64,000 bases of DNA from Alphaproteobacteria bacterium (lineage in GTDB: Bacteria > Pseudomonadota > Alphaproteobacteria > Ferrovibrionales > Ferrovibrionaceae): NCBI GenBank assembly GCA_017307375.1, contig JAFKFH010000006.1, forward strand, positions 62,001 through 126,000, read 5' to 3'. A program made the position numbers and the translations under genes. Each line of letters begins with the position of its first letter. The stretch's first letter is position 1. This document shows, in pieces, positions 5,320-35,091 of this stretch. The notes beneath the pieces were generated by a model. The model was not told the origin of the DNA and ran no database searches. It saw nothing but the letters and a program-made list of their open reading frames with translations.

Positions 5320-6696
5320 GTGCCAAGCAAGCAGAAAGGCGCACAGGCCAACAGCGCTGCAAAAGCCGGCGCGGGGAAGGCCATCGCGGCGGTGGCGGCC
5401 CAGTCCATCACGACGAAGCCGCAGCAACAGCCTGCCGCCGTCAGCCAGTCCGGCGACGGGGTCTCGATGCTGAAGCAGGATCACCGCAAGGTCGATGCCC
5501 TGTTCACCCAATACGAGACCGAAGGCGCCGACAAGGCGTCGATCCGGCGTCAGATCTGCGACGAACTGATGATCCACGCGATGCTGGAGGAAGAAATCTT
5601 CTATCCCGCCTGCCGCGGCCACGTCGAGGCGGCGGACGACAAGCTCGACGAAGCCCAGGTCGAGCACGACAGCGCCAAGATGCTGATCATCGAGCTTCTG
5701 GAGGCAGAGGACGACGATGAGTATCTCGACGCGAAGGTGAAGGTCCTGGCCGAGCAGATCAGGACCCATGTGAAGGAAGAAGAAGCGGCCGATGGCGTCC
5801 TGGCAAAGGCGCAGCAGGCCGGGATCAACAACCCCGATCTAGCCCGGCGGTTGCGGGAGAGGAAGTCGGTCCTGCAGATGCAGGCTCAGTCCGGCGACCT
5901 TCCCGAACCGCAGGTGATCTCCTTCCAGCACGCATTTGGTAGCAGCAAAGAAACGGAGGACGACATGAGCCGAGGGAATTATTCGGGTCGCGACGAGCGC
6001 GGCCGCTTCACCGGCGACGATGATCGCGGCTACGGCCGCAGCCAGGGCCGCGGATCCAGCGCGAGCCGCAGCCGCTACGACGACGACGATGACCGGCGCT
6101 ATGGTCGCGGCGGTGGCAATGGCGGCAGCGGCTGGTACGGCGATTCGGAAGGCCACGCCGAGGCCGCGCGCCGCGGCTGGGAGAATCGTGACGACAACGG
6201 CTATCGCGGCCGCGGTCGCGACGACGAGGACGATCGCCGCTACTCGACCCGCGGACGCGACGACGACGATTACCGGCGGTCCAGCCGGTCGTCCGGTGAC
6301 CGGGGCCAGGGCGGCTGGTTCGGCGATCGCGAGGGTCACTCGGAAGCCTCGCGCCGCGGCTGGGAAGATCGCGATCGTGGCGGCTACAGCGCGCGCGGCC
6401 GCGACGACGACGATTACCGTCGTTCCAGCCGGTCGTCGGGTGATCGCGGTGACCGGGGCCAGGGTGGCTGGTTCGGCGATCCCGAGGGCCACTCGGAAGC
6501 CTCGCGGCGCGGCTGGGAAGACCGTGACCGTGGCGCCTACCGCTCGCGCGGGCGCGACGACGACGATGACCGCCGCTATACCCGCAGCCGCCGCGACGAC
6601 GATGACGACGGCCGTGGCCATGGCCGCGGCGGCTGGTTCGGCGACCCTGAGGGTCACTCGGAAGCCTCGCGCCGCGGCTGGGACCACCGCCGCTAA
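5320..6696 (+). CDS. Hemerythrin-domain protein fused to Gly/Asp/Arg stress-repeat tail
   Basis: A 458-residue protein from a GTG start with AAGGAGG at 5308-5314. After a Lys/Ala/Gln-rich leader, residues about 48-175 form a hemerythrin HHE domain: the di-iron ligand pattern is visible in KQDHRKV, HAMLEEEIFYP, VEHDSA and HVKEEEA. From residue 216 the protein is a charged, disordered tail with four copies of a GGWFGDPEGHSEASRRGW-type unit separated by Asp/Arg runs, similar to KGG-type stress repeats. Met216 has its own strong ribosome site (GGAGG at 5955-5959, five bases before ATG 5965), so the tail may also be made alone or reflect a recent gene fusion. A di-iron oxygen/redox role plus stress protection is inferred. 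Confidence 0.8.
   Translation: MPSKQKGAQANSAAKAGAGKAIAAVAAQSITTKPQQQPAAVSQSGDGVSMLKQDHRKVDALFTQYETEGADKASIRRQICDELMIHAMLEEEIFYPACRGHVEAADDKLDEAQVEHDSAKMLIIELLEAEDDDEYLDAKVKVLAEQIRTHVKEEEAADGVLAKAQQAGINNPDLARRLRERKSVLQMQAQSGDLPEPQVISFQHAFGSSKETEDDMSRGNYSGRDERGRFTGDDDRGYGRSQGRGSSASRSRYDDDDDRRYGRGGGNGGSGWYGDSEGHAEAARRGWENRDDNGYRGRGRDDEDDRRYSTRGRDDDDYRRSSRSSGDRGQGGWFGDREGHSEASRRGWEDRDRGGYSARGRDDDDYRRSSRSSGDRGDRGQGGWFGDPEGHSEASRRGWEDRDRGAYRSRGRDDDDDRRYTRSRRDDDDDGRGHGRGGWFGDPEGHSEASRRGWDHRR
5955..5967 (+). promoter_or_regulatory. Internal ribosome site and in-frame ATG
   Basis: GGAGG (5955-5959) lies five bases before an in-frame ATG (5965-5967) at codon 216 of the hemerythrin fusion, exactly at the junction between the HHE domain and the repeat tail. 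The residues that follow (MSRGNYSGRDERGRF) look like a natural protein start. Confidence 0.5.
6130..6681 (+). repeat. Four in-frame 51-bp coding repeats
   Basis: Copies of 51 bases at 6130-6180, 6313-6363, 6466-6516 and 6631-6681 encode the GWFGDPEGHSEASRRGW-type unit. Copies 2-4 are nearly identical; copy 1 is diverged. Spacing is 183, 153 and 165 bases, and the spacers encode Asp/Arg/Ser-rich linkers that are themselves partly repeated. They are part of the protein, not a CRISPR array. Confidence 0.85.

Positions 6697-9348: not shown

Positions 9349-9349
<1 letters not shown>
6767..9349 (-). CDS. Acyl-CoA ligase / enoyl-CoA hydratase fusion protein
   Basis: An 860-residue bifunctional protein. 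Residues 1 to about 510 are an AMP-forming acyl-CoA synthetase with P-loop HTGGTTGRPK, YGMTET, the TTGDIGYLTHDERLVLTGREKD hinge region and the catalytic C-terminal Lys in VGKIFK. Residues from about 610 to the end are a complete crotonase domain (IVTLNRPAQLNAAS, AFCAGGDL, GGIELMLACDL). The crotonase keeps the Glu in GGIEL but has GHARYG where hydratases usually have PE, so one catalytic Glu is missing and a non-hydratase crotonase reaction is possible. It starts inside the stop codon of the ABC ATPase gene (ATGA). It is the last gene of the import operon, so it probably activates an imported acid to its CoA thioester and processes it. Confidence 0.85.
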
Positions 9350-10842
<1,493 letters not shown>

Positions 10843-10843
10843 T

Positions 10844-11872
10844 TCATGCCTCCGGCAAGGCGACGACGACATCGTCGCCACGCGCGGCCGCGAAGACGGT
10901 TCCGCCATGCGCGACGACGCTGGTGATGCCATGGGTGCGGCCATCGGCCCGGCTATGCAGGCTCGATACCGGCTGGAATGCCGCATCGAGCCGGACGCAC
11001 AGGCCGGTCGACAGGCTCGGCGCCCAGGGTTTCAGCAGGCCCAGATGCTTGACCCCGCCGCCCTGCAGCGGCTCGTAGAAGCTGCGCCCCGATCGCAGTT
11101 TCGGCGCGATCCAGTAGGGCTGCGGCACCTCGGCGATCATCCGCCTGACATAGGCGGTTTCGCGCAGCACGAATTCGACGAGCTGGCTGCGCGGCGCGAA
11201 GATCGCCAGCCAGTAATGGTCGCCGCTGCGCGACAGCCGGCCCGGATAGCCCGGGAGGTCGCCATAGAGAACTCGGGGCCGCGCCGGTTCGGCGGGATCG
11301 ATGCAGACCAGGCGGTGCTTCCAGGCCTCGGCCACGACCGGTCGGCCCTTGCCGTCGATCGCCAGGCCGCTCGGCCAGGCGAGACCGGCGGCAAGCCGGG
11401 CGGCACGGCCCGTGGCCAGGTCGATCTGCCACAGACTGCCGGTGGCGCCGCGCTGCAGCAGATCGAGCTGCCACTCGTCGGGCCGATGGCGCGCCGACCC
11501 GCAGGCGACATAGAGCGCGGTTTCCGTGATGGCCATCGCGGTGATGCACCCGCCCTCGACGCGATGGCGGCGCCCGTCGATCAGGATGGCGCCGTTTGCC
11601 AGCGCGATCGCCGGGCCTTCGATGCAGGTGATGCGATCGTCCACCTGCAGCACATGCTGCCATCGGCCCGCGGCATCGAGCGTCAGGAGGGTATCGCCGG
11701 CCGCGGCGAGCAGCCGGCCGCCATGGACCGTCAGGCAGTCGACGCCGTCGAGGCGATGTCGTGCCGCGGCCTCGTCCAAGGCCCGGTTCGGCCGCAGCGC
11801 GCCGTCAAGCGGCGGCACCGTTACGGCGGCATCGCCGCGGCCCAGGAAGTTGTCGATCGCCTTGAGGATCAT
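10844..11872 (-). CDS. Strictosidine-synthase/SMP-30-like six-bladed propeller
   Basis: A 342-residue beta-propeller of the SMP-30/strictosidine-synthase-like group, with repeated blade motifs such as WPSGLAIDGKGRPVVAEAW, LPGYPGRLSRSGDHYWLAI and a closing HGITSVVAHGG. It is a diverged paralogue of the C-terminal half of the gene upstream; LPGYP and the segment after it align. No signal peptide is visible, so it is cytoplasmic. The family includes lactonases and hydrolases, so opening of a lactone made from the imported substrate is a reasonable guess, not shown. It is joined to its neighbours by ATGA overlap upstream and a one-base gap downstream. Confidence 0.75.
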   Translation of the reverse strand: MILKAIDNFLGRGDAAVTVPPLDGALRPNRALDEAAARHRLDGVDCLTVHGGRLLAAAGDTLLTLDAAGRWQHVLQVDDRITCIEGPAIALANGAILIDGRRHRVEGGCITAMAITETALYVACGSARHRPDEWQLDLLQRGATGSLWQIDLATGRAARLAAGLAWPSGLAIDGKGRPVVAEAWKHRLVCIDPAEPARPRVLYGDLPGYPGRLSRSGDHYWLAIFAPRSQLVEFVLRETAYVRRMIAEVPQPYWIAPKLRSGRSFYEPLQGGGVKHLGLLKPWAPSLSTGLCVRLDAAFQPVSSLHSRADGRTHGITSVVAHGGTVFAAARGDDVVVALPEA

Positions 11873-13983
11873 GACCGCCCCCAATAGGCGCGCTGGCCGG
11901 TCCAGTCGGGATCGGAATCCGGCAGTTTCAGGCGCCCGATGCGGTTGTTCAGCAGCCCGCCGATATAGAGATGGCCGCGATGCTCGCGCATCGAGGTGAT
12001 CATCGGATGGTTCTCGCCGCCCTGGTCCCAGAGCACGTCGAGGATCGTGCCCCGGTCGTCGAAGCGGACGACGCAGCCGGAATTGATGTTGGGATAGAGC
12101 CATTCGTCCGGCGCTATGCGCCGGGCCATGCGCTTGCGGAACCCCGGCATCTTGAGTGCGAGGTCGAGCGACGGGGTACGCATGCCGACCAGCGCGAGCC
12201 AGTAGGTGCCGTCCGAGGCGCGATTGATGTTGTCGGGGTATCCCGGCAGGTCGGCGATGACCGTCTCGACACTGCCGGACTTTGGTCCGGCGAAGTAATA
12301 GCGGCTGACCCGGCAGCCCCAGGTCTCGGCGAACAGGAACGACTGGCCGTCATGGGTCATGCAGATCCCATTGGGGAACATCAGGTTCTTCAGCACCGTC
12401 CGCGTGCTGGCCGTGGCCGGGTCGTAGCAGACGATGCGGCCGTTGCCGCGCGCCTCGAGGCAGTCGACCGGCCATTCGTGCATTTCGTAGCGGATCGTCG
12501 CCTCGCTGAAGAATACCCGGCCGTCCGGCGCGATATCGAGGTCGTCGGCCAGGCGCAGGCGCGAATCGTCGACGATCGAGAACCACGACCGGTTGGTCTC
12601 GTCGGTCAGCTTCTCGATCCTGCGGTCGGGGGTGATGCGGTAGAGCCCCATGCCGCCGATGCAGCAGAGCAGGTTGCCGTCGCGGTCGAACGCCATGCCG
12701 AGCGGCCGGCCGCCGACATGGGCGTAGACTTCCCAGCGGCGGTAGTCGGGGGCAAGGAACCGGATGATGTCGCCGGTGCGGTTGCCTGCATAGATGTGGT
12801 CGTCGTCGTCGAGGATCACGTCCTCCGGCCCGTCGATCTCGCCCAGCCCGATCAGTTCGACCCCGCGCAGGCGGTCGTTCAGCGCGTAGGGCGAGCCCGC
12901 GTCGGTGCCCGGGGCGGGCGGCAATGCGGCGAAGACCGGGGAGACGTAGACCTTCGACAGCACCTTGTGACGGTTCTTCAGCCAGCGGACGTCGATGGCG
13001 ACGGCGCCGAGCAGCACGAGGCCGAGCAGCAGCGAGTTGGCGCCGCTGGTGACACCGAGGCGCACCAGGCTGTTGACCATGATCATCACCGTGATCGACC
13101 CGATGATCGCCTTGGCGGCCGAGCCGCGCCCGCCGCCCAGGCTGTTGCCGCCGAGCACGGCGGCGGTCAGCGCCGCGACCTCGAGCCCGATGCCGGTATC
13201 GGCGCCGGCACCGCCGAGGCGCGAGGCGAACAGCACGCCGGCCAGCGCCGCAAGGGTGCCGGAGACGACATAGGTCAGGCAGATCACCCGCCGCACCGGG
13301 ATGCCGACATTGTGGGCCGAGCGGCGCGAGCCGCCGGTGGCCAGTACGTGCCAGCCGATGCGCGAGCGGCTGAGGATCAGATGGGCCGCGATCGCGACGA
13401 CGGCGGTGACGACGACGCTGAACGGCAGGCCGGCGACCGACCCCTCGCCGAAGAAGAACCAGATGTCGGAATCGACGAAGGCGGCGGCGATCGCGACCGA
13501 GTATTTCAGCAGCAGCATGTCGACCACCGCGCGCACGATGATCAGCGTGACCAGGGTGGTGAGGAAGGCGCGCAGGCGGAGATAGCCGACCAGCAGGCCG
13601 TTGATCAGGCCGACCGCGGCGCCGCAGCCCAGGGTCGCGGCCACCACCGCGCCGACCGGCCAGCCGGCGACGTTGAGCAGGGCGAGCGCGACGATATTGC
13701 CCAGCGCAAAGGTCGAGCCGACGCTGAGGTCGATGCCGCCGGCGACCATCACGATCATCAGCGCCAACACCAGCAGGCTGAACTCGCCCCATTGGCGCAA
13801 CAGATTGCCGATGCTGCCCGCGCTGAAGAAGTCGGGGATCAGGGCGCCGAAGGTCGCGACGACCGCGATCAGGATGACAGCGGGGATGACGTTGTCGATC
13901 CAGCGCTTGGTCAGGAGTTCGCCGAGGAGATGATCGGGCACGACGCGATAGCGCCAGTACGCAACGGTATCTGACAGGGACAT
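11869..13983 (-). CDS. ABC permease fused to strictosidine-synthase-like propeller
   Basis: A 704-residue fusion. Residues 1 to about 335 are a multi-span RbsC-type permease with the family signature GGIDLSVGSTFALGNIVAL and the AAVLGGNSLGGGRGS loop. After a short linker (about 336-365), residues to the end form a complete strictosidine-synthase/SMP-30-like propeller (GPEDVILDDDDHIYAGNRTGD, MFPNGICMTHDGQSFLFAETW, LPGYPDNINRASDGTYWLAL). RbsC-type permeases normally have a cytoplasmic C-terminus, so the propeller would sit on the inner face of the membrane at the exit of the channel. There is no stop or frameshift between the two halves. ATG at 13983 gives a normal permease start. It overlaps the paralogous propeller gene by ATGA. 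Confidence 0.88.
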   Translation of the reverse strand: MSLSDTVAYWRYRVVPDHLLGELLTKRWIDNVIPAVILIAVVATFGALIPDFFSAGSIGNLLRQWGEFSLLVLALMIVMVAGGIDLSVGSTFALGNIVALALLNVAGWPVGAVVAATLGCGAAVGLINGLLVGYLRLRAFLTTLVTLIIVRAVVDMLLLKYSVAIAAAFVDSDIWFFFGEGSVAGLPFSVVVTAVVAIAAHLILSRSRIGWHVLATGGSRRSAHNVGIPVRRVICLTYVVSGTLAALAGVLFASRLGGAGADTGIGLEVAALTAAVLGGNSLGGGRGSAAKAIIGSITVMIMVNSLVRLGVTSGANSLLLGLVLLGAVAIDVRWLKNRHKVLSKVYVSPVFAALPPAPGTDAGSPYALNDRLRGVELIGLGEIDGPEDVILDDDDHIYAGNRTGDIIRFLAPDYRRWEVYAHVGGRPLGMAFDRDGNLLCCIGGMGLYRITPDRRIEKLTDETNRSWFSIVDDSRLRLADDLDIAPDGRVFFSEATIRYEMHEWPVDCLEARGNGRIVCYDPATASTRTVLKNLMFPNGICMTHDGQSFLFAETWGCRVSRYYFAGPKSGSVETVIADLPGYPDNINRASDGTYWLALVGMRTPSLDLALKMPGFRKRMARRIAPDEWLYPNINSGCVVRFDDRGTILDVLWDQGGENHPMITSMREHRGHLYIGGLLNNRIGRLKLPDSDPDWTGQRAYWGRS

Positions 13984-14045: not shown

Positions 14046-15041
14046 CTACTTCTTGGCGGCGAGCGTCCAGCAGGACCCCGGGTTGATGTTGTCCTTGGTC
14101 ATGAAGGTCAGCGGCGAGAACAGCGTGGTCTTGACCGCGCCGGCCTTCTGCTTGTTCTGCAGGATCTGCTTGATCATCGTCGCCATGTCGCGGGCCTGGC
14201 CTGGCACGTCGTAGGACACGACCTCGCTGTAGGTGCCGTTGTTGAGCCCGTCGCAGGCCGCCTTGTTGCCGCCGCCCGAGGTGATCAGGTAGACGTTCTT
14301 GCCCGATTCCCGGATCGCCGCGCCGGTCCCCAGGTCCATCACGTCCCAGAAGCCGACGATACCGCAGAGGTCGGGATGCTGCTGCAGCACCGTCGCCGCG
14401 ATGTTCCGCGCCTTGGTCGCGTCCCAGTCGGCCGCCTGGTTGGAGACGACCTTCATGTCCGGGTTCTTGCCGAAGACGTTGTTGATCCCCTGCATCTGGT
14501 AAGCGGAGGCCGCGGCGGTCAGCACGCCCTGGATGATGGCGACCTTGCCGTTCCCGCCGTTCTTGGGCGAGCATTTGCCGATCAGCTTGCCGGCCATCTG
14601 CTCGCCCATGTCGACGTAGTCGGCGCCGATGAAGGCGTCGGTCGAATAGCTCGACCGCATGTTGATCTGGACGACGTGGATGCCGGCATCCTCGGCCCGC
14701 TTCAGCAGGCGGGCATAGGATTGCACATCTGGGTTATGGACGACGATGACGTCGGGTTTCTCGGAGATCAGCGAGGTGATCGCCTGGGCGCCGGCATCCG
14801 TGCTCCAGTTGGGGTCCCGCACCTCGAAGGTCATGCCGAGCGGCTCGATCGCCGAGCGGATACCGGCGGCCCAGCCCTCGGTCAGGTCGAAGCCCATGGC
14901 GACCGGCACGTAGGCGACCTTCTTGCCTTTCAGCGACGAGTAGTAGGGCGCGCGGGTCGGATCGTCGATGCCCTGCGCGAACGCGGTGCCGCCGCACGCC
15001 AGCAGCGAGACGGCGAGCAAGCCTGCCTTGATCAGCTTCAT
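14046..15041 (-). CDS. Periplasmic sugar-type solute-binding protein
   Basis: A 331-residue substrate-binding protein with a clear Sec signal peptide (MKLIKAGLLAVSLLACGGTAFA, cut near residue 22). The Peripla_BP_4 fold is visible in KKVAYVPVAMGFDLTEGW, PDVIVVHNPDV, and the hinge/ligand region of the second lobe (DLCGIVGFWDVMDLGTGAAI). A typical AGGGAGG ribosome site precedes the ATG at 15041. Ligand unknown; the operon enzymes suggest a compound that gives a carboxylic acid or lactone. It is followed by the hairpin at 14010-14035, consistent with higher expression than the permeases. Confidence 0.9.
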   Translation of the reverse strand: MKLIKAGLLAVSLLACGGTAFAQGIDDPTRAPYYSSLKGKKVAYVPVAMGFDLTEGWAAGIRSAIEPLGMTFEVRDPNWSTDAGAQAITSLISEKPDVIVVHNPDVQSYARLLKRAEDAGIHVVQINMRSSYSTDAFIGADYVDMGEQMAGKLIGKCSPKNGGNGKVAIIQGVLTAAASAYQMQGINNVFGKNPDMKVVSNQAADWDATKARNIAATVLQQHPDLCGIVGFWDVMDLGTGAAIRESGKNVYLITSGGGNKAACDGLNNGTYSEVVSYDVPGQARDMATMIKQILQNKQKAGAVKTTLFSPLTFMTKDNINPGSCWTLAAKK

Positions 15042-15052
15042 GGTAGTCCTCC

Positions 15053-16027
15053 CTAGATGTCCCCTTGTTGCGCTGTCTGCTCGTCGCGGGGGTTGAGGAT
15101 CGTGTCGATCACGATCGCGGTGAGCAGGATCACGCTCTTGATCACGTTCTGGAGCGTGTATTGGATGTCCATGATGGTCATGCCGTTGAGCAGCACGCCG
15201 ATCAGCAGCGTGCCGACGATGACGTTGCGGATGCCGCCGCGCCCGCCCGACAGGCCGATGCCGCCCAGCACCACGACCAGGATCACGTCGTAGACGAAGG
15301 TCGAGTTGGCGATACGGGTGTTCATCGAGGCGACGGAGGCAGCGGTGACGATGCCGGCGACGAAGCCGATCAGCGACGACATCATGTATTGCAGCACGAT
15401 GATCGGCCGTGCCGGCACGCCGGAGATGCGCGCGGCGGCAAGGTTGTCGCCGACCGCGCGCAGGTAGCGGCCGGCGCGTGTCTGCCTCAGGAACAGGAAG
15501 GCCAAGAGGCAGACGCCGGCAAACAGATAGATCGGCACGGGTACGCCGAGTACGGCGCCCTGACCGAGCCACAGCAGATACCGCGCGTGATCGGGAAAGT
15601 AGAGAACATCGAGGTTGAACAGGAAATAGCGACCGAAGCCGTAGACCGCAGTTCCCATGGCAAGCGTGGCGAAGATCGCGGGGATCTCGACATAGGCGAT
15701 CAGGAAGCCGTTGATCATGCCGACCGCCAGGCAGAACACGACGCCGATCACGGCGGCCTGCGCCACCGGCATGCCGGTGCCGATCAATTGCAGCGTCCAG
15801 GCGACCGAGATCGCCATGGCGGCGATCAGCGACAGGTCGATGCCGCGGCCGATCACGACCAGCGCCATCGCAACGCCGAGAATTCCCAGGATCGATACGC
15901 TGCGCAGCAGGTTCAACAGGTTGTTGGCCGTGAGGAAACCGGGAAGCGCGATCGAAAAGCCGATGCAGAGCAGTACCGCCAGACCCAGCACGATCTGTTC
16001 TTGGGTCAGCCGTCCAAAAATACTCAT
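15053..16027 (-). CDS. Sugar-type ABC transporter permease
   Basis: A 324-residue multi-span RbsC-family permease with the signature GRGIDLSLIAAMAISVAW and the VVVLGGIGLSGGRGGIRN loop. The start ATG at 16027 has GGGATGG upstream. It is the first gene of the leftward operon (permease, binding protein, permease-propeller, propeller, ATPase, ligase-hydratase). The importer would be a heterodimer of this protein and the fused permease. Transcription starts in the 200-base gap shared with the divergent AraC gene. Confidence 0.9.
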   Translation of the reverse strand: MSIFGRLTQEQIVLGLAVLLCIGFSIALPGFLTANNLLNLLRSVSILGILGVAMALVVIGRGIDLSLIAAMAISVAWTLQLIGTGMPVAQAAVIGVVFCLAVGMINGFLIAYVEIPAIFATLAMGTAVYGFGRYFLFNLDVLYFPDHARYLLWLGQGAVLGVPVPIYLFAGVCLLAFLFLRQTRAGRYLRAVGDNLAAARISGVPARPIIVLQYMMSSLIGFVAGIVTAASVASMNTRIANSTFVYDVILVVVLGGIGLSGGRGGIRNVIVGTLLIGVLLNGMTIMDIQYTLQNVIKSVILLTAIVIDTILNPRDEQTAQQGDI

Positions 16028-16230: not shown

Positions 16231-17163
16231 ATGGATCTCGTTTTTTCGACGGACCAGTTCGAACCCGCGAAGCGCTATGCGGCCTGGCGCGACGCCATCT
16301 GTGACGTCTATGTCCATGTCGACGTCGCGGCCAGCGATCCCGACGACTACAAGGGCTTCATTCGCGAAACCGCCTTCGGCGAGATCATGCTGACCGACAT
16401 CCTGCTGTCCGAGCAGCGGATCATGCGGCGGGCCCACCATATCTCCAGCCTTGATAAGGATTGCTACTATCTGCAGCTGATCCAGCGCGGCCATCTGAAT
16501 GTGCTGCAGAAGGGCGAGGTCTATTCGTCCAATCCGGCACGCGGCGCGATCTTCTGCGCGACCGAGCAATACGAGCTGCAATGCCTGGGCGAGGTTCGGT
16601 CCTACTACCTGGAACTGCCGCGCGCCGCCTTTGCCCAGCGTTTCCCGCGCGAGAAGGTGCCGCTGTCGGCAGCGATCAACTCGACCCAGGGTCTCGGGCG
16701 CATCGCCACCGAATTCTGCGGGATGCTGGCGGCCGAGGGCGGCAGGCTCGACACCGAGGTGCGGGCCGGCCTCGGCGATCAGCTGATGGATATCCTGGCC
16801 CTGACGCTGCTATCGGCCGAAGACCAAGTCGGCGATGCCGACGGGGCGGTGCAGAAGGCGCGGCTGCGCTCGATCCAGAACTGGATCGAGGAGCATCTGG
16901 GCGAGCACGACCTGTCGCTCGAACGCATCGCGTTCGCCAACAACATCTCGCTGCGCTATCTGCACACGCTGTTCCGCCAGAGCGAGATGTCGGCGTCCGA
17001 ATGGCTGTGGCATCGCCGGCTGCAGCGTTGCTACGATCTGATCGCCCGGGGTGACGGCCGGTCGATCACCGCAATCGCCTTCGATCTCGGCTTCAACTCC
17101 TCGGCGCATTTCTCGACGATGTTCCGCCGCAAATACGGTCTCAGGCCGCGCGACCTGCGCTGA
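16231..17163 (+). CDS. AraC-family transcriptional regulator
   Basis: A 310-residue regulator. Residues 1-190 match the AraC-binding-like (cupin-type) ligand domain found in this subfamily (DQFEPAKRYAAWRDAI start). Residues about 205-308 are the double helix-turn-helix (LSLERIAFANNISLRYLHTLFR and ITAIAFDLGFNSSAHFSTMFRRKYG). ATG at 16231 is preceded by GGGGAGGGGG. It is transcribed away from the ribose-type import operon, so it is the likely local activator responding to the imported substrate or its CoA product. Confidence 0.88.
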   Translation: MDLVFSTDQFEPAKRYAAWRDAICDVYVHVDVAASDPDDYKGFIRETAFGEIMLTDILLSEQRIMRRAHHISSLDKDCYYLQLIQRGHLNVLQKGEVYSSNPARGAIFCATEQYELQCLGEVRSYYLELPRAAFAQRFPREKVPLSAAINSTQGLGRIATEFCGMLAAEGGRLDTEVRAGLGDQLMDILALTLLSAEDQVGDADGAVQKARLRSIQNWIEEHLGEHDLSLERIAFANNISLRYLHTLFRQSEMSASEWLWHRRLQRCYDLIARGDGRSITAIAFDLGFNSSAHFSTMFRRKYGLRPRDLR

Positions 17164-17188: not shown

Positions 17189-17692
17189 TCACCGGAACTC
17201 GGCGGCGCTCGCCTCCAGCCAGCCGGCAAAGTCCGCACCGAGGCTGCGGAACACGGCGAGTTCATAGACGCCGGCCGAAAGATGACGCAGCCGCAGGTCG
17301 ATATGGCCGGCGCGGGTCAGCGCGACGGCACCGGGCGGCAGCGCCGCCGGATCGAGGTCGATCGGCAGCATCTTGGCCAGGGTGTCGCGCACCCGCAGGC
17401 CCGAAACCTCGGTCAAGTGCCAGCCATCGGACTGATCGGTGACGGCTGCCTGCCCGGCAAGCCGGCCGGCGAGGTCGCGCGCGATCGGCCGATCGGCGAT
17501 CGCCGACCACTCGCCCGGGCCGGCCCAGGCGAAGGCGATGTCGGCGCCGCCGGCCCACCGTCCGGCAGATGGCAGGTCGATGCCGTAGGCCGCGGCGATC
17601 GTTGCAGCGACTGCACCGGCCTGGCCGCGCCGCGCCTCGATCGAGGCGAGGAAGCGGTCGCGGGTGACGATCGCAATCCCGGGTTCATCCAT
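17189..17692 (-). CDS. soxG: Sarcosine oxidase gamma subunit
   Basis: A 167-residue protein of the SoxG family, related to the GcvT/folate-binding fold, with FAWAGPGEWSAI and the segment DGWHLTEVSGLRVRDTLAKMLPIDLDPAALPPG typical of the subunit. It is the last gene of the soxBDAG order and overlaps soxA by 8 bases. The gamma subunit is structural in the heterotetramer that oxidises sarcosine to glycine, passing the methyl carbon to tetrahydrofolate. No terminator is evident before the convergent AraC gene ends 25 bases away. Confidence 0.9.
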   Translation of the reverse strand: MDEPGIAIVTRDRFLASIEARRGQAGAVAATIAAAYGIDLPSAGRWAGGADIAFAWAGPGEWSAIADRPIARDLAGRLAGQAAVTDQSDGWHLTEVSGLRVRDTLAKMLPIDLDPAALPPGAVALTRAGHIDLRLRHLSAGVYELAVFRSLGADFAGWLEASAAEFR

Positions 17693-20495
17693 GCAGGCGG
17701 CTCCCCTCCGGATCGTAGAAGACCGGCGAGACCACTTCGACCGGGGTATCCCGGCCGCGCACCGGATCGTAGGCGCGCACGGTTTCGCCCAGCCGTTCGC
17801 GCCCGCGCGCCAGCAGGCCCAGCGCGATCCATGAGCCCAACTGCGGCGAATAGCCGACCGAGGTCACGTAACCCTGGTCGTTGGCGGCGGTCGCGACAGC
17901 CCCCTGCGGCAGCAGATGGGCGCCGCCGGCCAGGATCGCGCCCGGCTCGCGCGGCTTGAGGCCGACCAGGACCGGCCGTTCCGGGTCGACCAGCGCCGGG
18001 CGGCCGGCCATCACCCGGCCGATGAAATCCTTCTTCGCCGACATCATCCTGGCCAGCCCGAGGTCGCCGGCCGTGGTCTGGCCGTTGAGTTCAGATCCGA
18101 CGACATGGCCCTTTTCCAGCCGCAGCAGCCCGATCGCCTCGAGCCCGTAGGGCGTGATCCCGAAGGCGTCGCCCTCGGCCATCAGCCGGCGCACTAACGC
18201 CTCGCCATGGCGGGCCGGCACGGCAATCTCGTAGGCGCGCTCGCCGGAAAACGACAGCCGGAAAAGCCGCGCCTCGATGCCGTCCATGATCGTCGTCTCG
18301 GCCAGGCCCATATGGGGCAGGCTGACATCGGTCAGGCGGGCCAGCACGTCCGGCGCCCGGGGCCCGGCCAGCGCCACCTGGGCCCATTGCTCGGTCACCG
18401 AGGTCATCTGCACGTCGAGATCGGGCCACAGGACCTTGCGGCAGAATTCGAGATGCCGCCATACCGTGCCGGCATTCGCCGTCGTCGTCGTCATCAGGAA
18501 ATGCTCGGGTCCCAGCCGGGCCGTGGTGCCGTCGTCGAAGGCGAAGCCGTCCTCGCGCAGCATCAGGCCATAGCGGCAGCGGCCGACCGGCAGGGTCTTC
18601 CAGCCGTTGACGTAGACCCGGTCGAGAAATTCCGCGGCGTCCGCGCCCTGGATGTCGATCTTGCCCAGGGTGGTGACGTCGCACAGCCCGACGGCCTCGC
18701 GCACGGCGCGGACTTCGCGGTTGGTCGCGGTCAGCCAGTCGCTTTCGCCGGGGCGCAGGAAATACTGGGCACGCAACCACAGCCCGGTTTCGACGAAGAC
18801 CGCGCCCTGTTCCGCCGCCCAGCCGTGCATCGGCGTGCGCCGGGTCGGGCGGAAGTCGCGGCCACGGTGATGGCCGGCGAAGGCGCCGATCGCCGCCGGG
18901 GTGAAGGGAGGACGGAACGTCGTCGTCCCGGTGGCGGGAATGCCGCGGCCGGTCAGTTCGGCCATGATCGCCAGGCCGGTGACGTTCGAGGTCTTGCCCT
19001 GGTCGGTCGCCATGCCCAGCGTGGTATAGCGCTTCAGGTGCTCGACGGCGCGAAACCCCTCGCGCGCAGCCAGCGCGACATCGTCGACGGTGACGTCGTT
19101 CTGGAAGTCGACGAAGGATTTGCCGCGCGTGCCCCGCACCCGCCACAGCGGCGCGATCTCGTAGCCGCTGCCGAAATCGCCGGCTGCGGCACCGACCACC
19201 GTCATCCCCGGCGGCAGGCCGCCGGGCACGAAGCTTGCGATCTTCTCGTCCCAGCGCGGCTTGCCGCCGAGATGCGAGGTCAGATGCAGCGTCGGGTTCC
19301 AGCCGCCGGACATGGCGACAAGGTCGCAGGCGATGGTCGTGCCGTCGCTGAGCTCGACATCCCGAACGCCGAGGCGGCCGCGCGCACGCTGGATGGAGAC
19401 GCCCGCAGCCAGCCGCGCATTGGCGGCCTGCGCGGCTGCGATCGTCGCGGCGGAAGGCACCGGCCGCGGGTCGACCAGCGCCGCGACCTCGATGCCCGCG
19501 GCATGCAGGTCGGCGACCGTCCGGGCGCCGTCGTCGTTGTTGGCGAACACCACGGCACGGCTGCCCGGCGCCACGCCGAAGCGATTGACATAGGTCCGCA
19601 CGGCGCCTGCCAGCATCACGCCGGGCCGGTCGTTGTCACCGAAGGCCAGCGGTCGTTCGATCGCGCCCGCGGCCAGCACCGCGCGCCGGGCGACGAGGCG
19701 CCACAGGCGCTGGCGCGGCTGATGCTGGCCCGGGATCGCCAGATGGTCGGCTACCCGCTCGATCGCCGCGTAGGTCCCGCCGTCATAGACGCCGGTGACC
19801 GTGGTGCGCGTCATGACGCGGAGATTGGGCAGGTCGCCCAGCTCGGCGATCGGGTCCCGCCCGCGTTCGGACAGCAGCCGCCCGCCCAGGACAAAATCCT
19901 GCTCGGCCAGGATCACCCGGTCACCGGCGCGCGCCGCCACCAGCGCCGCATCCAGGCCGGCCGGTCCCGCACCGATCACCAGCACGTCGCAGAACGCCGT
20001 CGCCTTTTCGTAGTGGTCGGGATCGGCCACGGCTGCGGCACGGCCAAGGCCGGCGGCGCGGCGGATCAGCGGTTCGTAGACCTTCTCCCAGAACGCGGCC
20101 GGCCACATGAAGGTCTTGTAGTAGAAGCCGGCGGTGAAGATCGGCGACAGCAGCCCGTTCACCGCCATCACGTCGTGGCGCAGCGACGGCCAGCGATTCT
20201 GGCTGGTTGCCACCAGCCCGTCATGCAGCTCGACCGTCGTTGCCCGCGTATTGGGTTCGCGCCGGGCGCCGTCGCGCAGCTCGACCAGGGCGTTCGGTTC
20301 CTCCGGTCCGGCCGAGAGGATGCCGCGCGGGCGATGATACTTGAACGACCGCCCCACCAGCGCGACCCCCGCGCCGAGCAGGGCCGAAGCGAGGGTGTCG
20401 CCGGCAAAGCCGCGATAGGCCTGGCCGTCGAAGTGGAACGCGATCGGCCGGGCACGGTCGATCGTGCCGCCGGTGGCAAGGCGACGGCCGGTCAT
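17685..20495 (-). CDS. soxA: Sarcosine oxidase alpha subunit
   Basis: A 936-residue alpha subunit with the normal domain order: N-terminal Fer2-like fold (FHFDGQAYRGFAGDTLASALL) lacking cluster cysteines, NAD/FAD-binding region (LVIGAGPAGLDAALVAARAG; second nucleotide site near AVVFANNDDGARTVA), and a C-terminal GcvT aminomethyltransferase-like domain (about 530-930). The latter takes the oxidised methyl group to tetrahydrofolate. Length is close to the usual 950-1000. It overlaps soxD by ATGA and soxG by 8 bases. The true substrate may be another secondary amine, since the operon has extra demethylating enzymes. Confidence 0.93.
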   Translation of the reverse strand: MTGRRLATGGTIDRARPIAFHFDGQAYRGFAGDTLASALLGAGVALVGRSFKYHRPRGILSAGPEEPNALVELRDGARREPNTRATTVELHDGLVATSQNRWPSLRHDVMAVNGLLSPIFTAGFYYKTFMWPAAFWEKVYEPLIRRAAGLGRAAAVADPDHYEKATAFCDVLVIGAGPAGLDAALVAARAGDRVILAEQDFVLGGRLLSERGRDPIAELGDLPNLRVMTRTTVTGVYDGGTYAAIERVADHLAIPGQHQPRQRLWRLVARRAVLAAGAIERPLAFGDNDRPGVMLAGAVRTYVNRFGVAPGSRAVVFANNDDGARTVADLHAAGIEVAALVDPRPVPSAATIAAAQAANARLAAGVSIQRARGRLGVRDVELSDGTTIACDLVAMSGGWNPTLHLTSHLGGKPRWDEKIASFVPGGLPPGMTVVGAAAGDFGSGYEIAPLWRVRGTRGKSFVDFQNDVTVDDVALAAREGFRAVEHLKRYTTLGMATDQGKTSNVTGLAIMAELTGRGIPATGTTTFRPPFTPAAIGAFAGHHRGRDFRPTRRTPMHGWAAEQGAVFVETGLWLRAQYFLRPGESDWLTATNREVRAVREAVGLCDVTTLGKIDIQGADAAEFLDRVYVNGWKTLPVGRCRYGLMLREDGFAFDDGTTARLGPEHFLMTTTTANAGTVWRHLEFCRKVLWPDLDVQMTSVTEQWAQVALAGPRAPDVLARLTDVSLPHMGLAETTIMDGIEARLFRLSFSGERAYEIAVPARHGEALVRRLMAEGDAFGITPYGLEAIGLLRLEKGHVVGSELNGQTTAGDLGLARMMSAKKDFIGRVMAGRPALVDPERPVLVGLKPREPGAILAGGAHLLPQGAVATAANDQGYVTSVGYSPQLGSWIALGLLARGRERLGETVRAYDPVRGRDTPVEVVSPVFYDPEGSRLHG

Positions 20496-20743
20496 CGCGC
20501 CACCTCCTGCACCGAGGCGACGACATGGGTGGTCGTGTCCCGCGTGACCACGAGCCACGCCCGGCAGCCGGAGGCGTGATACCACCATTCGCGATGCGCG
20601 CCGGCCGGGTTGCGGCGCAGATAGACGTAGTCCATCCAGGCCTGGCCGAACGGTTCGCCGTCGGGGCGGCGGCGGTCGGCATCGCCGCCATAGGCGAATT
20701 CCTCGATGCCGCGATTGCCGCAATGGGGGCAGGTCAGGCGCAT
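20492..20743 (-). CDS. soxD: Sarcosine oxidase delta subunit
   Basis: An 83-residue zinc-binding subunit. The ligand pattern Cys5-x2-Cys8 (CPHCG) plus a later His and Cys (WWYHASGCRAW) is intact, as is the DYVYLRRNPAG core. ATG at 20743 is chosen because the protein then begins MRLTCPHC as in the family. It lies 40 bases after soxB and overlaps soxA by four. Confidence 0.93.
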   Translation of the reverse strand: MRLTCPHCGNRGIEEFAYGGDADRRRPDGEPFGQAWMDYVYLRRNPAGAHREWWYHASGCRAWLVVTRDTTTHVVASVQEVAR

Positions 20744-20783
20744 GGCGATCCGTCCAATGCCGCTCGGGTCAAGGCCATCTTGC

Positions 20784-22040
20784 TCAATGCAGGGCGACGT
20801 CGGCCCCGGCCCCGGCCTCGTCGAGCAGCCGGCCGGTGGCAAAACGGTCGAGGCGATAGGCGGCGGCGACGCGATGGGGTTCGTCGCGGGCGATCAGATG
20901 GGCGAAGCACCAGCCGGAGGCCGGCGTCGCCTTGAAGCCCCCGATGCACCAGCCGGCGTTGAGATAGAGGCCGCCGATATCGGTCCGGTCGATGATCGGG
21001 CTGCCGTCCATCGACATGTCCATCACCCCGCCCCAATGGCGCAGCATGCGCAGGCGTCCCAGCGCCGGCATCAGCGCCATGCCTTCCTCGCAGACATCCT
21101 CGATGATCGGCAGGTTGCCGCGCTGGGCGTAGGAGTTGTAGCCGTCGATCGAGCCGCCGAAGACCAGCCCGCCCTTGTCGGACTGGCTGATGTAGAAATG
21201 CCCGGCGCCGAAGGTCACGACGCAGTCGATCAGCGGCTTCAGGCCTTCGGAGACGAAGGCGGTCAGCACGTGGCTTTCGATCGGCAGGCGCAGCCCGGCC
21301 ATCGCCGCGACGCGACCGGAATTGCCGGCGCAGGCCAGCCCGATCTTGCCGGCGCCGATGAAGCCGCGCGACGTTTCGACGCCGGTTGCGCGGCCGCCTT
21401 CGATGCGGATGCCTGTCACTTCGCAGTTCTGCAGGATGTCGACGCCGCGCCGGTCGGCGGCGCGGGCGTATCCCCAGGCGACGGCATCGTGGCGCACCGT
21501 GCCGCCGCGCGGCTGCAGCAATCCGCCCATGATCGGGAAACGCGCATTGTCGAAGTCGAGGAACGGCAGCTTGGCGCGGACGGCATCGCGGTCGAGCAGT
21601 TCGGCATCGACGCCGTGCAGCCGCATTGCATTGCCCCGGCGGGCATAGGCATCGCGCTGGCCGTCGGAATGGTAGAGGTTGAGGACGCCGCGCTGGCTGA
21701 CCATCGCGTTGTAGTTGATGTCCTGCTCCAGCCCTTCCCACAGTTTCAGCGACCATTCGTAGAACGGTATGTTGCCGGGCAGCAGGTAATTTGAGCGCAC
21801 GATCGTCGTATTGCGCCCGACATTGCCCGACCCGATCCAGCCCTTCTCGACGACGGCGATGTTGCCGATACCGTGCTGGCTGGCCAGGTAGTAGGCGGTC
21901 GCCAGGCCGTGGCCGCCACCGCCGACGATGACGACATCGTAATGCGGCTTGGGCGCCGGGTCGCGCCATTGCGGCTTCCAGCCGCGATGGCCCGACAGCG
22001 CCTCGCCCAGCAGCGTGAAGATCGAGAAACGGTCGGTCAT
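20784..22040 (-). CDS. soxB: Sarcosine oxidase beta subunit
   Basis: A 418-residue DAO-family flavoprotein. The FAD site VVIVGGGGHGLATAYYLA starts near residue 36, and His184 in TVRHDAVAWGYARAA is the residue that carries covalent FMN in this family. This subunit oxidises the N-methyl amine. The GGVMDMSMDGSPIIDRT and GWCIGGFKATPASG motifs are characteristic. It overlaps the preceding FAD oxidoreductase by four bases. Confidence 0.94.
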   Translation of the reverse strand: MTDRFSIFTLLGEALSGHRGWKPQWRDPAPKPHYDVVIVGGGGHGLATAYYLASQHGIGNIAVVEKGWIGSGNVGRNTTIVRSNYLLPGNIPFYEWSLKLWEGLEQDINYNAMVSQRGVLNLYHSDGQRDAYARRGNAMRLHGVDAELLDRDAVRAKLPFLDFDNARFPIMGGLLQPRGGTVRHDAVAWGYARAADRRGVDILQNCEVTGIRIEGGRATGVETSRGFIGAGKIGLACAGNSGRVAAMAGLRLPIESHVLTAFVSEGLKPLIDCVVTFGAGHFYISQSDKGGLVFGGSIDGYNSYAQRGNLPIIEDVCEEGMALMPALGRLRMLRHWGGVMDMSMDGSPIIDRTDIGGLYLNAGWCIGGFKATPASGWCFAHLIARDEPHRVAAAYRLDRFATGRLLDEAGAGADVALH

Positions 22041-23185
22041 GCGGCGATCGGCACCCAGCCGCGCCGCGCCGCCCAGTCGGGATCAAGGCCGGCGAACCGG
22101 TCGAGACGCAGCTTGCCGAGATCGGTGAACCTGCAGCGGCCGTCGATCACCAGGTCGCGGATCGCATGGCCGGTCGCCGGCGACAGGCCGAAGCCGACCG
22201 AGGACATCGTCGCCACCGTCACGTTGCCCGGATCGGCCAACCGGTCGATCACCGGGCGGCCGTCGGGCGTGTTCTCGATGATGCCGGCCCAACTGCGGAT
22301 CATCCGCACATGTCCGGCCTTGGGGAACAGCTCGGCCAGCCGGCGGGCCAGGTTGCGCAACAGCGGGGTCGAGGGGCGCGCGACGGCCTGACCGTCGCCG
22401 GCCTCGACCCATTCATGCGGCCCGCCGCCATAGGCGAGGTTGCCGCGCAGCGTCTGGCGACCGTAGAGGCCGTTGCCGTCGACGCCGCCATGCGTCATCA
22501 GCGGCAGCGGCTCGGTGACGATCATCTCGGCCCGGCCCGCGGCCAGCGGCAGGTCGTGGCCGAGCAGGCGGAGTAGACGGCCGGTCTGGGGGCCGGCGGC
22601 GATGACGAGGTTGTCGAGGCCGATCTCGCCACGATTCGTCCGGACCGCGACGACCTTGCCGCCGGCGGTGGAGAAGCCGGTGACGAAGGTGTGCTGCATC
22701 AGCCGGCCGCCCAGGTCCTGCAGCGCCCAGCCATAGGCCTGGACGGTGCGCTGCGGATTGGCGTGACCGCCGAAATGGAAATGCACGGCACCGACGGCGT
22801 TGTCGCCGGCCAGCGGGACCAGTTCGCGCACCTGCCTGGGATCCAGCTCGCTGGACGGGTAGCCCATTGCGCGCGTGATCTCGGCCATGCGCCGATAGCG
22901 GGCGAACTGCAGTTCGTTGATCGCGACGATCACCCGTTCGCGCCGGTATTCGGTGGGATAGCCGAGCAACTGGTCCATCTGCGGCCACAGCCGCTGTTCC
23001 TCGTCGAACAGCTGGCTCTGGTAATGGGTGCAGCCGCCGCCGTTCCGCCCCGACGCTTCCCAGCCGATGATGCCCTTGTCGATGACGACGACATCCATGC
23101 CGTCGCGCGCCAGCCACCAGCCGGCGCTTAACCCCGTGACGCCGCCGCCGACGATCACCGTCGTCGCACCCTTTTGCCCCGTCAT
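22037..23185 (-). CDS. FAD-dependent amine/amino-acid oxidoreductase (DAO family)
   Basis: A 382-residue single-domain DAO-fold flavoprotein with the dinucleotide site TVIVGGGVTGLSAGWWLA at the N-terminus and a C-terminal FAD-contact region (SWAGIIENTPDGRPVIDRL, SVGFGLSPATGHAI). It resembles PuuB/OoxB-type oxidases or dehydrogenases of secondary amines and imino acids. It sits between a BFD-type flavoprotein and soxB in a tight operon; a pair of this kind (small DAO plus larger FAD/BFD protein) recalls the two large subunits of octopine/nopaline- or hydroxyproline-type dehydrogenases. Substrate unknown. Confidence 0.8.
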   Translation of the reverse strand: MTGQKGATTVIVGGGVTGLSAGWWLARDGMDVVVIDKGIIGWEASGRNGGGCTHYQSQLFDEEQRLWPQMDQLLGYPTEYRRERVIVAINELQFARYRRMAEITRAMGYPSSELDPRQVRELVPLAGDNAVGAVHFHFGGHANPQRTVQAYGWALQDLGGRLMQHTFVTGFSTAGGKVVAVRTNRGEIGLDNLVIAAGPQTGRLLRLLGHDLPLAAGRAEMIVTEPLPLMTHGGVDGNGLYGRQTLRGNLAYGGGPHEWVEAGDGQAVARPSTPLLRNLARRLAELFPKAGHVRMIRSWAGIIENTPDGRPVIDRLADPGNVTVATMSSVGFGLSPATGHAIRDLVIDGRCRFTDLGKLRLDRFAGLDPDWAARRGWVPIAA

Positions 23186-23196
23186 CTCCGGACCCC

Positions 23197-24642
23197 TCAG
23201 AGGTGCATGTGGTCGCCGAGGCCGGATTCGTCGTCCAGGACCTCGCGTTCGGTGCCGATATCGGCGTAAGGCGTCCATTGCCCGGGAATGCCGAACCAGA
23301 CTTCCCAGCGGTCGCGCATCACCTGCTCCTCGTCGGCATCGGCCAGCACGGTCAGCGGCAGGGGCCGGACCGGGGCACGATAGCCGGCCAGCGGTACCTC
23401 GGCCGGGTCGAGGTTCGAGGCGAGCGCCAGATGCAGCGCCACCTGTTCGCGGCAGCGACGGCCCTGGCAGTGGCCCATGGTCACGCGGGTCAGCCGCTTC
23501 ATCTGGTCGTGGCTGGGCGGGCCGTCGGCCAGCATCGAAGAGAGGTCGTGACCTTGCGGTGGCGGGCAGCCGAGATAGCGCGGCGGCTGCATCCCCAGCA
23601 GTTCGGCCCGGCTGACTTCCTCGCACAGGCAGACCAGCTCGCGCCCATCGCCGGCGCGGGTCTGGGCCCGCACCCAGTCCAGGCGATAGCCATAGCCGTC
23701 GCCCGAAGGCACGCCGGCACAATCGCCAGCGAAGCTGACGCCCGGGATGCTCGACCGGCCTTCGCCGTCGACCAGCGGCACATGCCCGCCGCTGTCGCCG
23801 CGGGCCGCGAGACGGCACCCCAGCACATCGGCCAGTTCGACCACGGGGACCAGGCCGATGGCGAGGCAGATCGTGTCGCAGGCGATCCGGGTGACGGCGC
23901 CGCCGGGACCGACCAGGTCGACCGCCTCGATGCCGGACGGACCGCCGACCGCACGCGCGACCGCATGGCCGGTCAGGACCGGCAGATCGGTGACGGACTG
24001 CGCGCTGTCGCGCACTTCGACGAGGCATGCCACCTCGAGTCCGCGCGCCTGCGCCTGCTGGGCGGTCTCTACCGCCAGGTCGCCCGAGCCGAGAATGACG
24101 ATGCGCCGGCCGTCGAAGGCGTCATAGGTGGCGATGAGCGACTGCAGCGCGCGGGCGCCGATCACCCCGGGCTGTTCGACACCAGCGAAGGAAACGACGA
24201 AGTCGCGCGCGCCGGCGGCCACCACCAGCCGGTCGAAACCGATCAGCCACGAGCGTTCGTCGTCGGCCAGCCCGACGACGCGGCCCGGCAGGGTCTGGAC
24301 GCCCGGGCCGTTGACGAAGGCGCCCCAGGCATAGACGCCCAGGCGGACGTCGACACCGGCCTCGAAGGCTTCCTCCAGTGCCGGCTTGGCCGACAGGACC
24401 TGCTCGACCATGCGCGGCTTGTTGTGCACGGCGGCGGTCATCCGCTGGCCGTAGAAGAGCGGCACGTCGAGGCCCATCAGTCCGCCGGCGACGGGGTTTT
24501 CGTCGACCAGCACCACCTTGGCACCGTCGCGGGCACCGGCGATCGCGGCGGCGATGCCGGCCGGGCCGGCACCGATCACCAGCAGTTCGGCGTGTTCGGC
24601 CGGGGCGCCGTGCTTGCCGGCGACCGATTTCGGGTCCTGCAT
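23197..24642 (-). CDS. FAD/NAD(P) oxidoreductase with BFD-type [2Fe-2S] motif
   Basis: A 481-residue pyridine-nucleotide-disulfide-type flavoprotein of the HcnB/OoxA/SoxA-like group. Two nucleotide folds are visible (LLVIGAGPAGIAAAIAGA near residue 20 and IVILGSGDLAVETAQQA near 183). The C-terminal part has the cysteines LVCLCEEV and GHCQGRRC, the BFD-like [2Fe-2S] motif. It probably forms a complex with the DAO-family protein 11 bases downstream and passes electrons to the respiratory chain. Alternatively it could act as a reductase for the Rieske enzyme, since no dedicated Rieske reductase is encoded here. It shares one base with the PLP enzyme gene. Confidence 0.8.
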   Translation of the reverse strand: MQDPKSVAGKHGAPAEHAELLVIGAGPAGIAAAIAGARDGAKVVLVDENPVAGGLMGLDVPLFYGQRMTAAVHNKPRMVEQVLSAKPALEEAFEAGVDVRLGVYAWGAFVNGPGVQTLPGRVVGLADDERSWLIGFDRLVVAAGARDFVVSFAGVEQPGVIGARALQSLIATYDAFDGRRIVILGSGDLAVETAQQAQARGLEVACLVEVRDSAQSVTDLPVLTGHAVARAVGGPSGIEAVDLVGPGGAVTRIACDTICLAIGLVPVVELADVLGCRLAARGDSGGHVPLVDGEGRSSIPGVSFAGDCAGVPSGDGYGYRLDWVRAQTRAGDGRELVCLCEEVSRAELLGMQPPRYLGCPPPQGHDLSSMLADGPPSHDQMKRLTRVTMGHCQGRRCREQVALHLALASNLDPAEVPLAGYRAPVRPLPLTVLADADEEQVMRDRWEVWFGIPGQWTPYADIGTEREVLDDESGLGDHMHL

Positions 24643-27109: not shown

Positions 27110-27209
27110 TGGGGTTCCTTCGTCTTGCAATAACTTGCGATATGGTCCGAGTGGGCGATGACGATCCCGCAGATACTGAGATCGCGATTGCCGAAATGGT
27201 GGCATACGA

Positions 27210-27228
27210 GATTGCTGTAAGGGCAATC
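27210..27228. promoter_or_regulatory. Candidate LysR operator
   Basis: Inverted repeat GATTGC (27210-27215), seven bases, GCAATC (27223-27228), containing the T-N11-A pattern of LysR boxes (ATTGC-N7-GCAAT). It lies in the 237-base gap between the Rieske operon start (27109) and the LysR start (27347), about 100 bases from each. Confidence 0.55.
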
Positions 27229-33830: not shown

Positions 33831-33936
33831 GACATTCCCTCTGTCGTGACCGGCCCCCGGCTGGTCCTCGCGGCATTCTGGACGGCTTCGCCGCCGGGTG
33901 ACAGCGGCAGGATGCCGCGCGGTACTTCCGCCCGCG

Positions 33937-33959
33937 AAAAGTCAAATAATATGACTTTT
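33937..33959. promoter_or_regulatory. Palindromic operator candidate upstream of ytfQ
   Basis: Perfect 8-bp inverted repeat AAAAGTCA (33937-33944) and TGACTTTT (33952-33959) with an AT-only 7-base spacer, about 85 bases before the YtfQ-like start. The AT-rich spacer may hold the -10 region. The best candidate binder is the GntR/FadR-type repressor encoded at the end of the same operon; inferred. Confidence 0.55.
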
Positions 33960-34043
33960 AAGCCGACATGGCCTGTGGCACACTCCAGCCCGAAACAAGC
34001 GGGTCAATCCGCGAAATGGTTCAAACCACGGGAGAAACGCCAA

Positions 34044-35009: not shown

Positions 35010-35023
35010 ACCAGCCCGGCCCC

Positions 35024-35051
35024 GGCGCCGCGTGCCCTCCCACGCGGCGCC
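35024..35051 (+). promoter_or_regulatory. Post-binding-protein hairpin
   Basis: Perfect 11-bp GC-rich stem GGCGCCGCGTG (35024-35034) with CACGCGGCGCC (35041-35051), six-base loop, between the binding-protein and ATPase genes. No T-run follows; it probably limits read-through or stabilises the ytfQ message. Confidence 0.6.
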
Positions 35052-35091
35052 GCCCGTCCGTATCCGTCCTTTGCAGCGTCAAGATTGCCCG

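Follow-up and report, generated by a model that had tools for sequence, protein, structure and literature searches.

A permease-propeller fusion in a conserved five-gene ABC transporter operon

The 64,000-nucleotide stretch of DNA considered here (the window; positions 62,001 to 126,000 of contig JAFKFH010000006.1, from an alphaproteobacterium of the Ferrovibrionaceae) encodes a protein in which an RbsC-type permease continues directly into a propeller domain of the strictosidine synthase family. The locus raises the question of what a propeller does on the end of a permease, and whether it acts on the cargo that the permease brings in. Uptake coupled to chemical conversion, or group translocation, is classically the work of phosphotransferase systems and acyl-coenzyme A (acyl-CoA) ligases. 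The reading preferred here, with a probability of roughly 0.55, is that the gene belongs to an RbsABC-type ATP-binding cassette (ABC) importer in which the cytoplasmic end of one of the two permeases bears a metal-dependent propeller hydrolase (a lactonase or esterase).

The open frame runs through 704 residues without a stop. Its permease half matches the Pfam family BPD_transp_2 over positions 2-268 of a 269-position profile (124.2 bits against a cut-off of 26.8), and its propeller half matches SSL_N (residues 365-409), SGL (residues 424-600), and Str_synth (residues 480-566; 75.5 bits against a cut-off of 25). Translation and Pfam bear out the first-pass annotation, which had described an uninterrupted frame joining a complete permease to a complete propeller. 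An AlphaFold2 model, built on an alignment of 65 sequences, has a predicted local distance difference test score (pLDDT) of 85.9 and a predicted template modelling score (pTM) of 0.65. The model and its matches to six-bladed propellers point to a six-bladed fold for the fused domain. The next gene, which overlaps the fusion gene by 4 bases (ATGA), encodes a free propeller paralogue.

The fusion is recurrent. At least 508 relatives were found across bacterial and archaeal genomes, and the analysis kept the 79 loci most similar to the fused propeller. Permease and propeller share one frame at 78 of these 79 loci, a proportion that is no estimate for all relatives, since the loci were ranked by likeness to the fused propeller; the remaining locus (L076) begins inside the propeller at a contig end. 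Among 61 genomes comprising the window's own and 60 relatives, six carry full-length fusions with 55-80% identity (G058, G014, G012, G003, G005, and G054), and partial fusions occur in G002 and G005. In a collection of 72,556 plasmid records, a single match spans 80% or more of the query in 15, and all 12 of the loci viewed encode permease, binding protein, one-frame fusion, and paralogue in that order. The ATPase gene is visible as well in 11 of the 12, and the remaining locus (L101) runs to the end of its record.

A third sample consisted of 398 Pseudomonadota genomes, with at most five candidates scored per genome, E-values up to 1e-30 for the propeller profile, and 1e-40 for the paralogue profile. 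The propeller profile gives 17 matches of at least 532 bits, all in frames of at least 707 residues and distributed over 11 genomes. Its other listed matches reach at most 270.1 bits in frames of at most 520 residues, bar two weak cross-matches at paralogues. The paralogue profile also gives 17 matches, each adjoining a fused propeller, in the same 11 genomes; at E 1e-40, it matches nothing in the remaining 387. The search for the same fusion in other genomes that the first-pass annotation proposed thus found it repeatedly, and this recurrence (78 of 79 loci, 12 of 12 plasmid loci, and 17 of 17 propellers) rules out chance, a frameshift, or a sequencing error hiding a stop between the domains.

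Permease, binding protein, fusion, paralogue, and ATPase form a rigid, conserved five-gene system. All five genes stand in the same order at 69 of the 79 loci, and the remaining 10 are, by our own count, cut by contig ends. In a 60-row tree whose bootstrap is not fully settled, 25 fused propellers (support 100/96), 24 paralogues (100/100), and 11 free propellers (100/95) each fall on one side of a branch. These groups and the constant pairing of the two propellers suggest that the fusion probably arose once and that both were inherited together thereafter. The operon is found in alpha-, beta-, and gammaproteobacteria and on plasmids, which makes horizontal spread likely. Some loci hold multiple copies; on L052 (positions 1-21077), a contig of a Dongia metagenome-assembled genome, three successive fusion genes have clearly distinct sequences, and their divergence suggests substrate diversification.

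The side of the membrane on which the propeller lies is predicted from the permease half. By our reading, the model has ten membrane helices within residues 27-335; the helix at residues 267-277 is short, and the last continues to residue 346. With the N-terminus placed inside, the inner loops carry 13 lysine and arginine residues and the outer loops none, and the same bias holds over 65 family members. The helix number is even, the loop at residues 207-229 falls on the same side as the C-terminus, and the linker at residues 336-360 contains four lysine or arginine residues and no aspartate or glutamate. Because of the 13-to-0 charge bias, the C-terminus, and hence the propeller, is predicted to lie in the cytoplasm, as the first-pass annotation had supposed from family topology. 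The permease half had no counterpart among PDB sequences at the thresholds used, and propeller matches took up the structure lists, so that absence of a permease there is uninformative.

The fused propeller looks catalytically competent. Among PDB sequences, it is best matched by rice TGW6 (8kg3; E 7.8e-30), described as an indole-3-acetic acid (IAA)-glucose hydrolase (PMC10958001). That source presents TGW6 residues E59, N167, N226, and N272 as partly conserved calcium positions, just one of which is acidic, and contrasts this with the two or more acidic residues at the site of other calcium propellers (PMC10958001). In our own numbering of the sequence alignment, these four residues align with E387, D480, N538, and N585 of the fusion. 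Each of the four is present in all 83 fused rows, which comprise the window's frame and 82 more at 78 loci, and D584 is present in 82 of the 83. With E387 and D480, two of the four positions are acidic in the fused family, the pattern of a calcium propeller as far as alignment can indicate. The fused domain thereby appears to keep the calcium-ligand positions of propeller lactonases.

Structure comparison with model residues 363-704 places TGW6 first (Z 34.5), followed by strictosidine synthase (33.8), DFPase (about 30), the lactonase RPA3624 (29.9), and PON1 (27.6). Strictosidine synthases in the alignment have glycine for N538 and for D584 and keep N585; E387 and D480 lie outside the aligned part. 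T663, invariant over 65 rows, faces the glutamate of an HFEQ motif in a low-scoring part of the alignment (9.5 bits). By numbering, this glutamate is equated with Glu309, which we take to be the catalytic glutamate of Rauvolfia strictosidine synthase. Strictosidine-type condensation by the fused propeller was considered and is unlikely, because a threonine takes the place expected for the catalytic glutamate. The earlier description of the propeller as strictosidine-synthase-like is apt for fold and family, but the site resembles the calcium lactonase, DFPase, and paraoxonase type more closely than a true strictosidine synthase.

The free paralogue is related to the fused propeller but differs from it at the putative site. 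A profile of the paralogue family matches the fused propeller at 106.8 bits, and an AlphaFold2 model of the paralogue has a propeller fold (pLDDT 92.4), while the protein has no match in Pfam (E up to 0.001) or NCBIfam (E up to 0.01). Its template modelling scores, normalized to the target, against strictosidine-type propellers are weaker (0.63-0.70) than those of the fused propeller (0.80-0.84). Over 24 paralogue rows, D480 is replaced by threonine in 20, D481 by alanine in 24, D584 by glycine, alanine, or serine in 24, and N585 by arginine in 20; E387 becomes aspartate in 19, and N538 is retained in seven. The end branches of the paralogues tend to be longer in the 60-row tree. The paralogue has invariant residues of its own, which argues that it is under selection for something else. 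With most ligand positions lost, it looks like an obligate pseudo-enzyme partner, and a second active lactonase is unlikely. The first-pass annotation was right that the next gene encodes a second, related propeller; the neighbor does not look like a second enzyme of the same kind, however, so that in the assay of both propellers proposed there activity is to be expected mainly from the fused one. That annotation passed over both the five-gene system and the pseudo-enzyme look of the paralogue.

The binding protein is only distantly like ribose- and allose-type binders (best PDB E 1.6e-17). Clues to the cargo come from neighboring genes. The first downstream genes (n = 67) include 14 AMP-binding proteins and six each of zinc alcohol dehydrogenases, thiolases, and enoyl-CoA hydratases; the first upstream genes (n = 69) include 16 AraC regulators, seven AMP-binding proteins, and six hydratases; and the second-position genes (n = 110) include seven aldehyde dehydrogenases, seven CoA-transferases, six hydratases, and five acyl-CoA dehydrogenases. 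These counts are not independent (many of the downstream AMP-ligases come from close relatives of the window operon), cover fusion operons alone, and should be scaled against the 67 AMP-binding matches in the 7.54 Mb genome of the window. A BLAST cluster around the ligase-hydratase fusion (Table 1) lies at most six genes away in 30 loci, its members not individually checked. The neighbors point to CoA-dependent acid catabolism and lean away from plain sugars. At L065, a DUF7064/DUF7065 gene (5491-6687) lies immediately upstream of the operon, and its BLAST cluster occurs in four loci (L058, L061, L065, and L079).

One concrete candidate substrate is supplied by degradative 3-hydroxy-3-methylglutaryl-CoA (HMG-CoA) reductase. 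This enzyme of mevalonate catabolism (TIGR00532; 428-442 bits, cut-off 260) is encoded beside the operon at five of the 79 loci (L040, L049, L054, L055, and L056), and on plasmid locus L016 a reductase gene (434 bits) has its stop where the first permease gene starts. HMG-CoA lyase scores above its cut-off in the same gene run at L049, L054, and L055; an HMGL-like gene lies upstream in L040, a gene of L056 shares the lyase BLAST cluster, and L016 is without an annotated lyase. Two lyase candidates were rejected: L040:13821-14618 has no NCBIfam match at E 1e-30, and L056:16468-17244 is a 5-oxoprolinase subunit. At L055, a one-strand run encodes reductase, CoA-transferase-like protein, hydratase-like protein, permease, binding protein, fusion, paralogue, ATPase, and lyase, the transferase-like and hydratase-like genes scoring below NCBIfam cut-offs.

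Of the 398 sampled genomes, 14 have the reductase, and only G110 has it together with the fusion. There the reductase and the propeller share a strand, 5.4 kb apart, and the frames between and after them, known by size alone, match in size. The five reductase-linked rows require three changes on the fusion tree, two of them forced by strongly supported branches (FastTree; rows classed as other were not checked singly). The operon is thus joined to degradative HMG-CoA reductase in at least two lineages, which most likely import mevalonate or its lactone.

Under the preferred reading of a hydrolase-bearing importer, the binding protein would deliver a lactone or ester in place of a plain sugar, and ATP-driven transport would free this cargo beside the fused propeller. 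The propeller would then open it to a hydroxy acid, or to an acid and an alcohol, and the ionized product would be unable to leak back out. Neighboring genes for CoA ligases, CoA transferases, or dehydrogenases would supply the enzymes that take this product further. The free paralogue would be a non-catalytic partner, probably situated beside the fused propeller, with a structural, gating, or product-binding role. Substrates may vary by lineage, with mevalonate or mevalonolactone predicted for the reductase lineages. A cytoplasmic processing domain, as proposed in the first-pass annotation, is plausible and is strengthened by the invariant ligand positions; its action on the imported cargo and the hand-over of that cargo (vectorial metabolism) are inferred.

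Several points weigh against this reading. The ligand positions are also kept in the 11 free propellers (N585 in 10 of 11) and so mark the wider family rather than the fusion, and they were mapped by sequence alignment only. In TGW6, the nearest solved relative, no calcium was found according to the excerpted source (PMC10958001). The pLDDT falls to 64-71 around residues 331-350, so that domain orientation is not fixed by the model; given this low-confidence linker and the pTM of 0.65, the propeller could point away from the exit of the channel. No catabolic gene is common to all lineages, a search for any universal neighbor gene found none, and the contexts of the 79 loci are clade-specific sets. 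The reductase link is likewise not general: 10 of the 11 fusion genomes are without a reductase, and 13 of the 14 reductase genomes are without the fusion. A partial view of one source indicates that mevalonolactone opens readily in water (PMC13064465), so a lactonase would not be required in the reductase lineages, where free mevalonate would serve HMG-CoA reductase equally well. In the open-access literature searched, no measured activity, ligand, or complex was found for the fusion system.

Other roles for the propeller account for part of the same evidence. C-terminal domains that regulate, sense, or dock occur in some other ABC importers, and the fused propeller may likewise be a non-catalytic cytoplasmic domain, serving as a regulator, as a substrate sensor for trans-inhibition, or as a dock for the ATPase and the paralogue. 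Its predicted side of the membrane is where the ATPase binds, and the paralogue demonstrates that the ligand set is dispensable in at least one propeller of the pair; a pure dock, however, would not need the four ligand positions that the fused rows, unlike the paralogue, keep without exception, and we regard this role as unlikely. The propeller could instead be an ordinary cytoplasmic pathway enzyme that acts on a later intermediate and is tethered for co-expression or membrane anchoring. Catabolic genes do lie nearby, and tethering needs no channelling. Those genes vary by lineage, whereas the fusion and paralogue are constant, which ties the propeller to the transporter rather than to one pathway and leaves the tethered enzyme rather improbable.

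A periplasmic propeller that processes cargo before uptake is far less probable than either of these, even though many SMP-30- and strictosidine-like propellers are secreted. It is disfavored by the loop charges and their bias across the family, by the even helix count, and by the position of loop 207-229 on the side of the C-terminus. A more elaborate form of the preferred reading is tentative: the operon may represent an undescribed class of ABC importer in which the permease-hung catalytic propeller and the obligate pseudo-enzyme propeller form a cytoplasmic exit chamber, where a lactone or ester is opened on entry and trapped. In the reductase lineages, this class would serve as a dedicated uptake system for mevalonolactone or mevalonate.

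Table 1. Coordinates of the operon, the parts of the fusion protein, and adjacent genes in the window.
Feature	Position	Strand	Basis
AraC-type regulator, divergent from operon	16231..17163	+	Start picked by eye
RbsC-type permease, unfused, the other of the operon's two permeases	15053..16027	-	Pfam
Periplasmic binding protein, Peripla_BP_4	14046..15041	-	Pfam; signal sequence by eye
Fusion gene, RbsC-type permease and SSL-type propeller, 704 aa	11869..13983	-	Open frame, Pfam, AlphaFold2 model
Permease domain, residues 58-327, BPD_transp_2	13003..13812	-	Pfam, model
Last helix, residues 313-346, from membrane into positively charged linker	12946..13047	-	Model helix
Fused propeller, residues 365-704	11872..12891	-	Pfam, alignments; E387, D480, N538, N585 invariant in family
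Free propeller paralogue, 342 aa	10844..11872	-	AlphaFold2, fold matches, family profile; no signal peptide by eye
Double ATP-binding subunit, RbsA-like	9349..10842	-	ABC_tran, two stretches
Acyl-CoA synthetase fused to enoyl-CoA hydratase, 860 residues	6767..9349	-	AMP-binding (215 bits) and ECH_1 (180 bits), single frame

The window operon follows the conserved order of permease, binding protein, fusion, paralogue, and ATPase and continues into the ligase-hydratase gene, whose start overlaps the end of the ATPase gene at position 9349. This gene is possibly a second fusion within the same locus, and its product may catalyze the first catabolic step in the window strain. Both of its domains are also in a single frame in L019, and L022 has a frame of similar length; in L020 and L026, by contrast, a shorter downstream frame precedes a short gene of its own. 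Beyond it, window positions 5320-6696 (plus strand) encode a hemerythrin-domain protein. Its Pfam match is limited to the hemerythrin part, and a motif like GGWFGDPEGHSEASRRGWE occurs several times in its C-terminal half.

Behind the AraC gene, positions 17189-27226 (minus strand) encode sarcosine-oxidase-type proteins (SoxG, a SoxA-like protein, and a DAO oxidoreductase) and a Rieske oxygenase. Rieske oxygenase and sarcosine oxidase genes also lie downstream of the operon on the Celeribacter plasmid locus L100. Window positions 33900-38600 (plus strand) hold another RbsABC-like system, this one ordinary, with a binding protein, a double ATPase, and two permeases (frames read by eye); it is followed by genes for a GntR-like regulator, a dehydratase, and a DapA-like protein, also assigned by eye.

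If the preferred reading of a hydrolase-bearing importer is true, a hydrolase built into the permease would extend group translocation to the largest transporter family. The locus also bears on annotation, as the fusion is recorded under the name of just one of its halves and the paralogue mostly as hypothetical. Among the 12 plasmid loci, the fusion is labeled SMP-30/gluconolactonase/LRE in 10 and permease in two, and the paralogue is labeled hypothetical in 10 and strictosidine synthase in two. "Sugar ABC transporter" labels may mislead.

No description of a permease-propeller fusion was found in the open-access literature, as judged by titles and the starts of abstracts, which is not proof of absence elsewhere. 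Compared with RbsABC/CUT2 importers (PF02653, PF13407, and double ABC_tran), the operon has all three subunit kinds above Pfam cut-offs, but it differs in having two unlike permeases, of which one ends in a propeller, in a fifth subunit (the paralogue), and in neighbors mostly of acid and CoA catabolism. Strictosidine synthase shares the fold and the Str_synth domain and differs at the catalytic glutamate. DFPase, PON1, and RPA3624 (Z 27-30), together with the putative gluconolactonase 3e5z (Foldseek), share the fold and the ligand-position pattern at just 12-20% identity to the fused propeller, and to our knowledge none of them is part of a transporter. TGW6 is the top match in sequence and structure, with three of the four ligand positions identical (E, N, and N), and is unlike the fused family in being a free protein with a single acidic site residue, against two in the fused family, and no calcium in the excerpted account (PMC10958001). 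A natural fusion of a propeller lactonase to an unrelated domain is described in an excerpt on DrSOD, a Cu/Zn superoxide dismutase; its partner is an enzyme, whereas the propeller described here is joined to a membrane transporter (PMC12362111).

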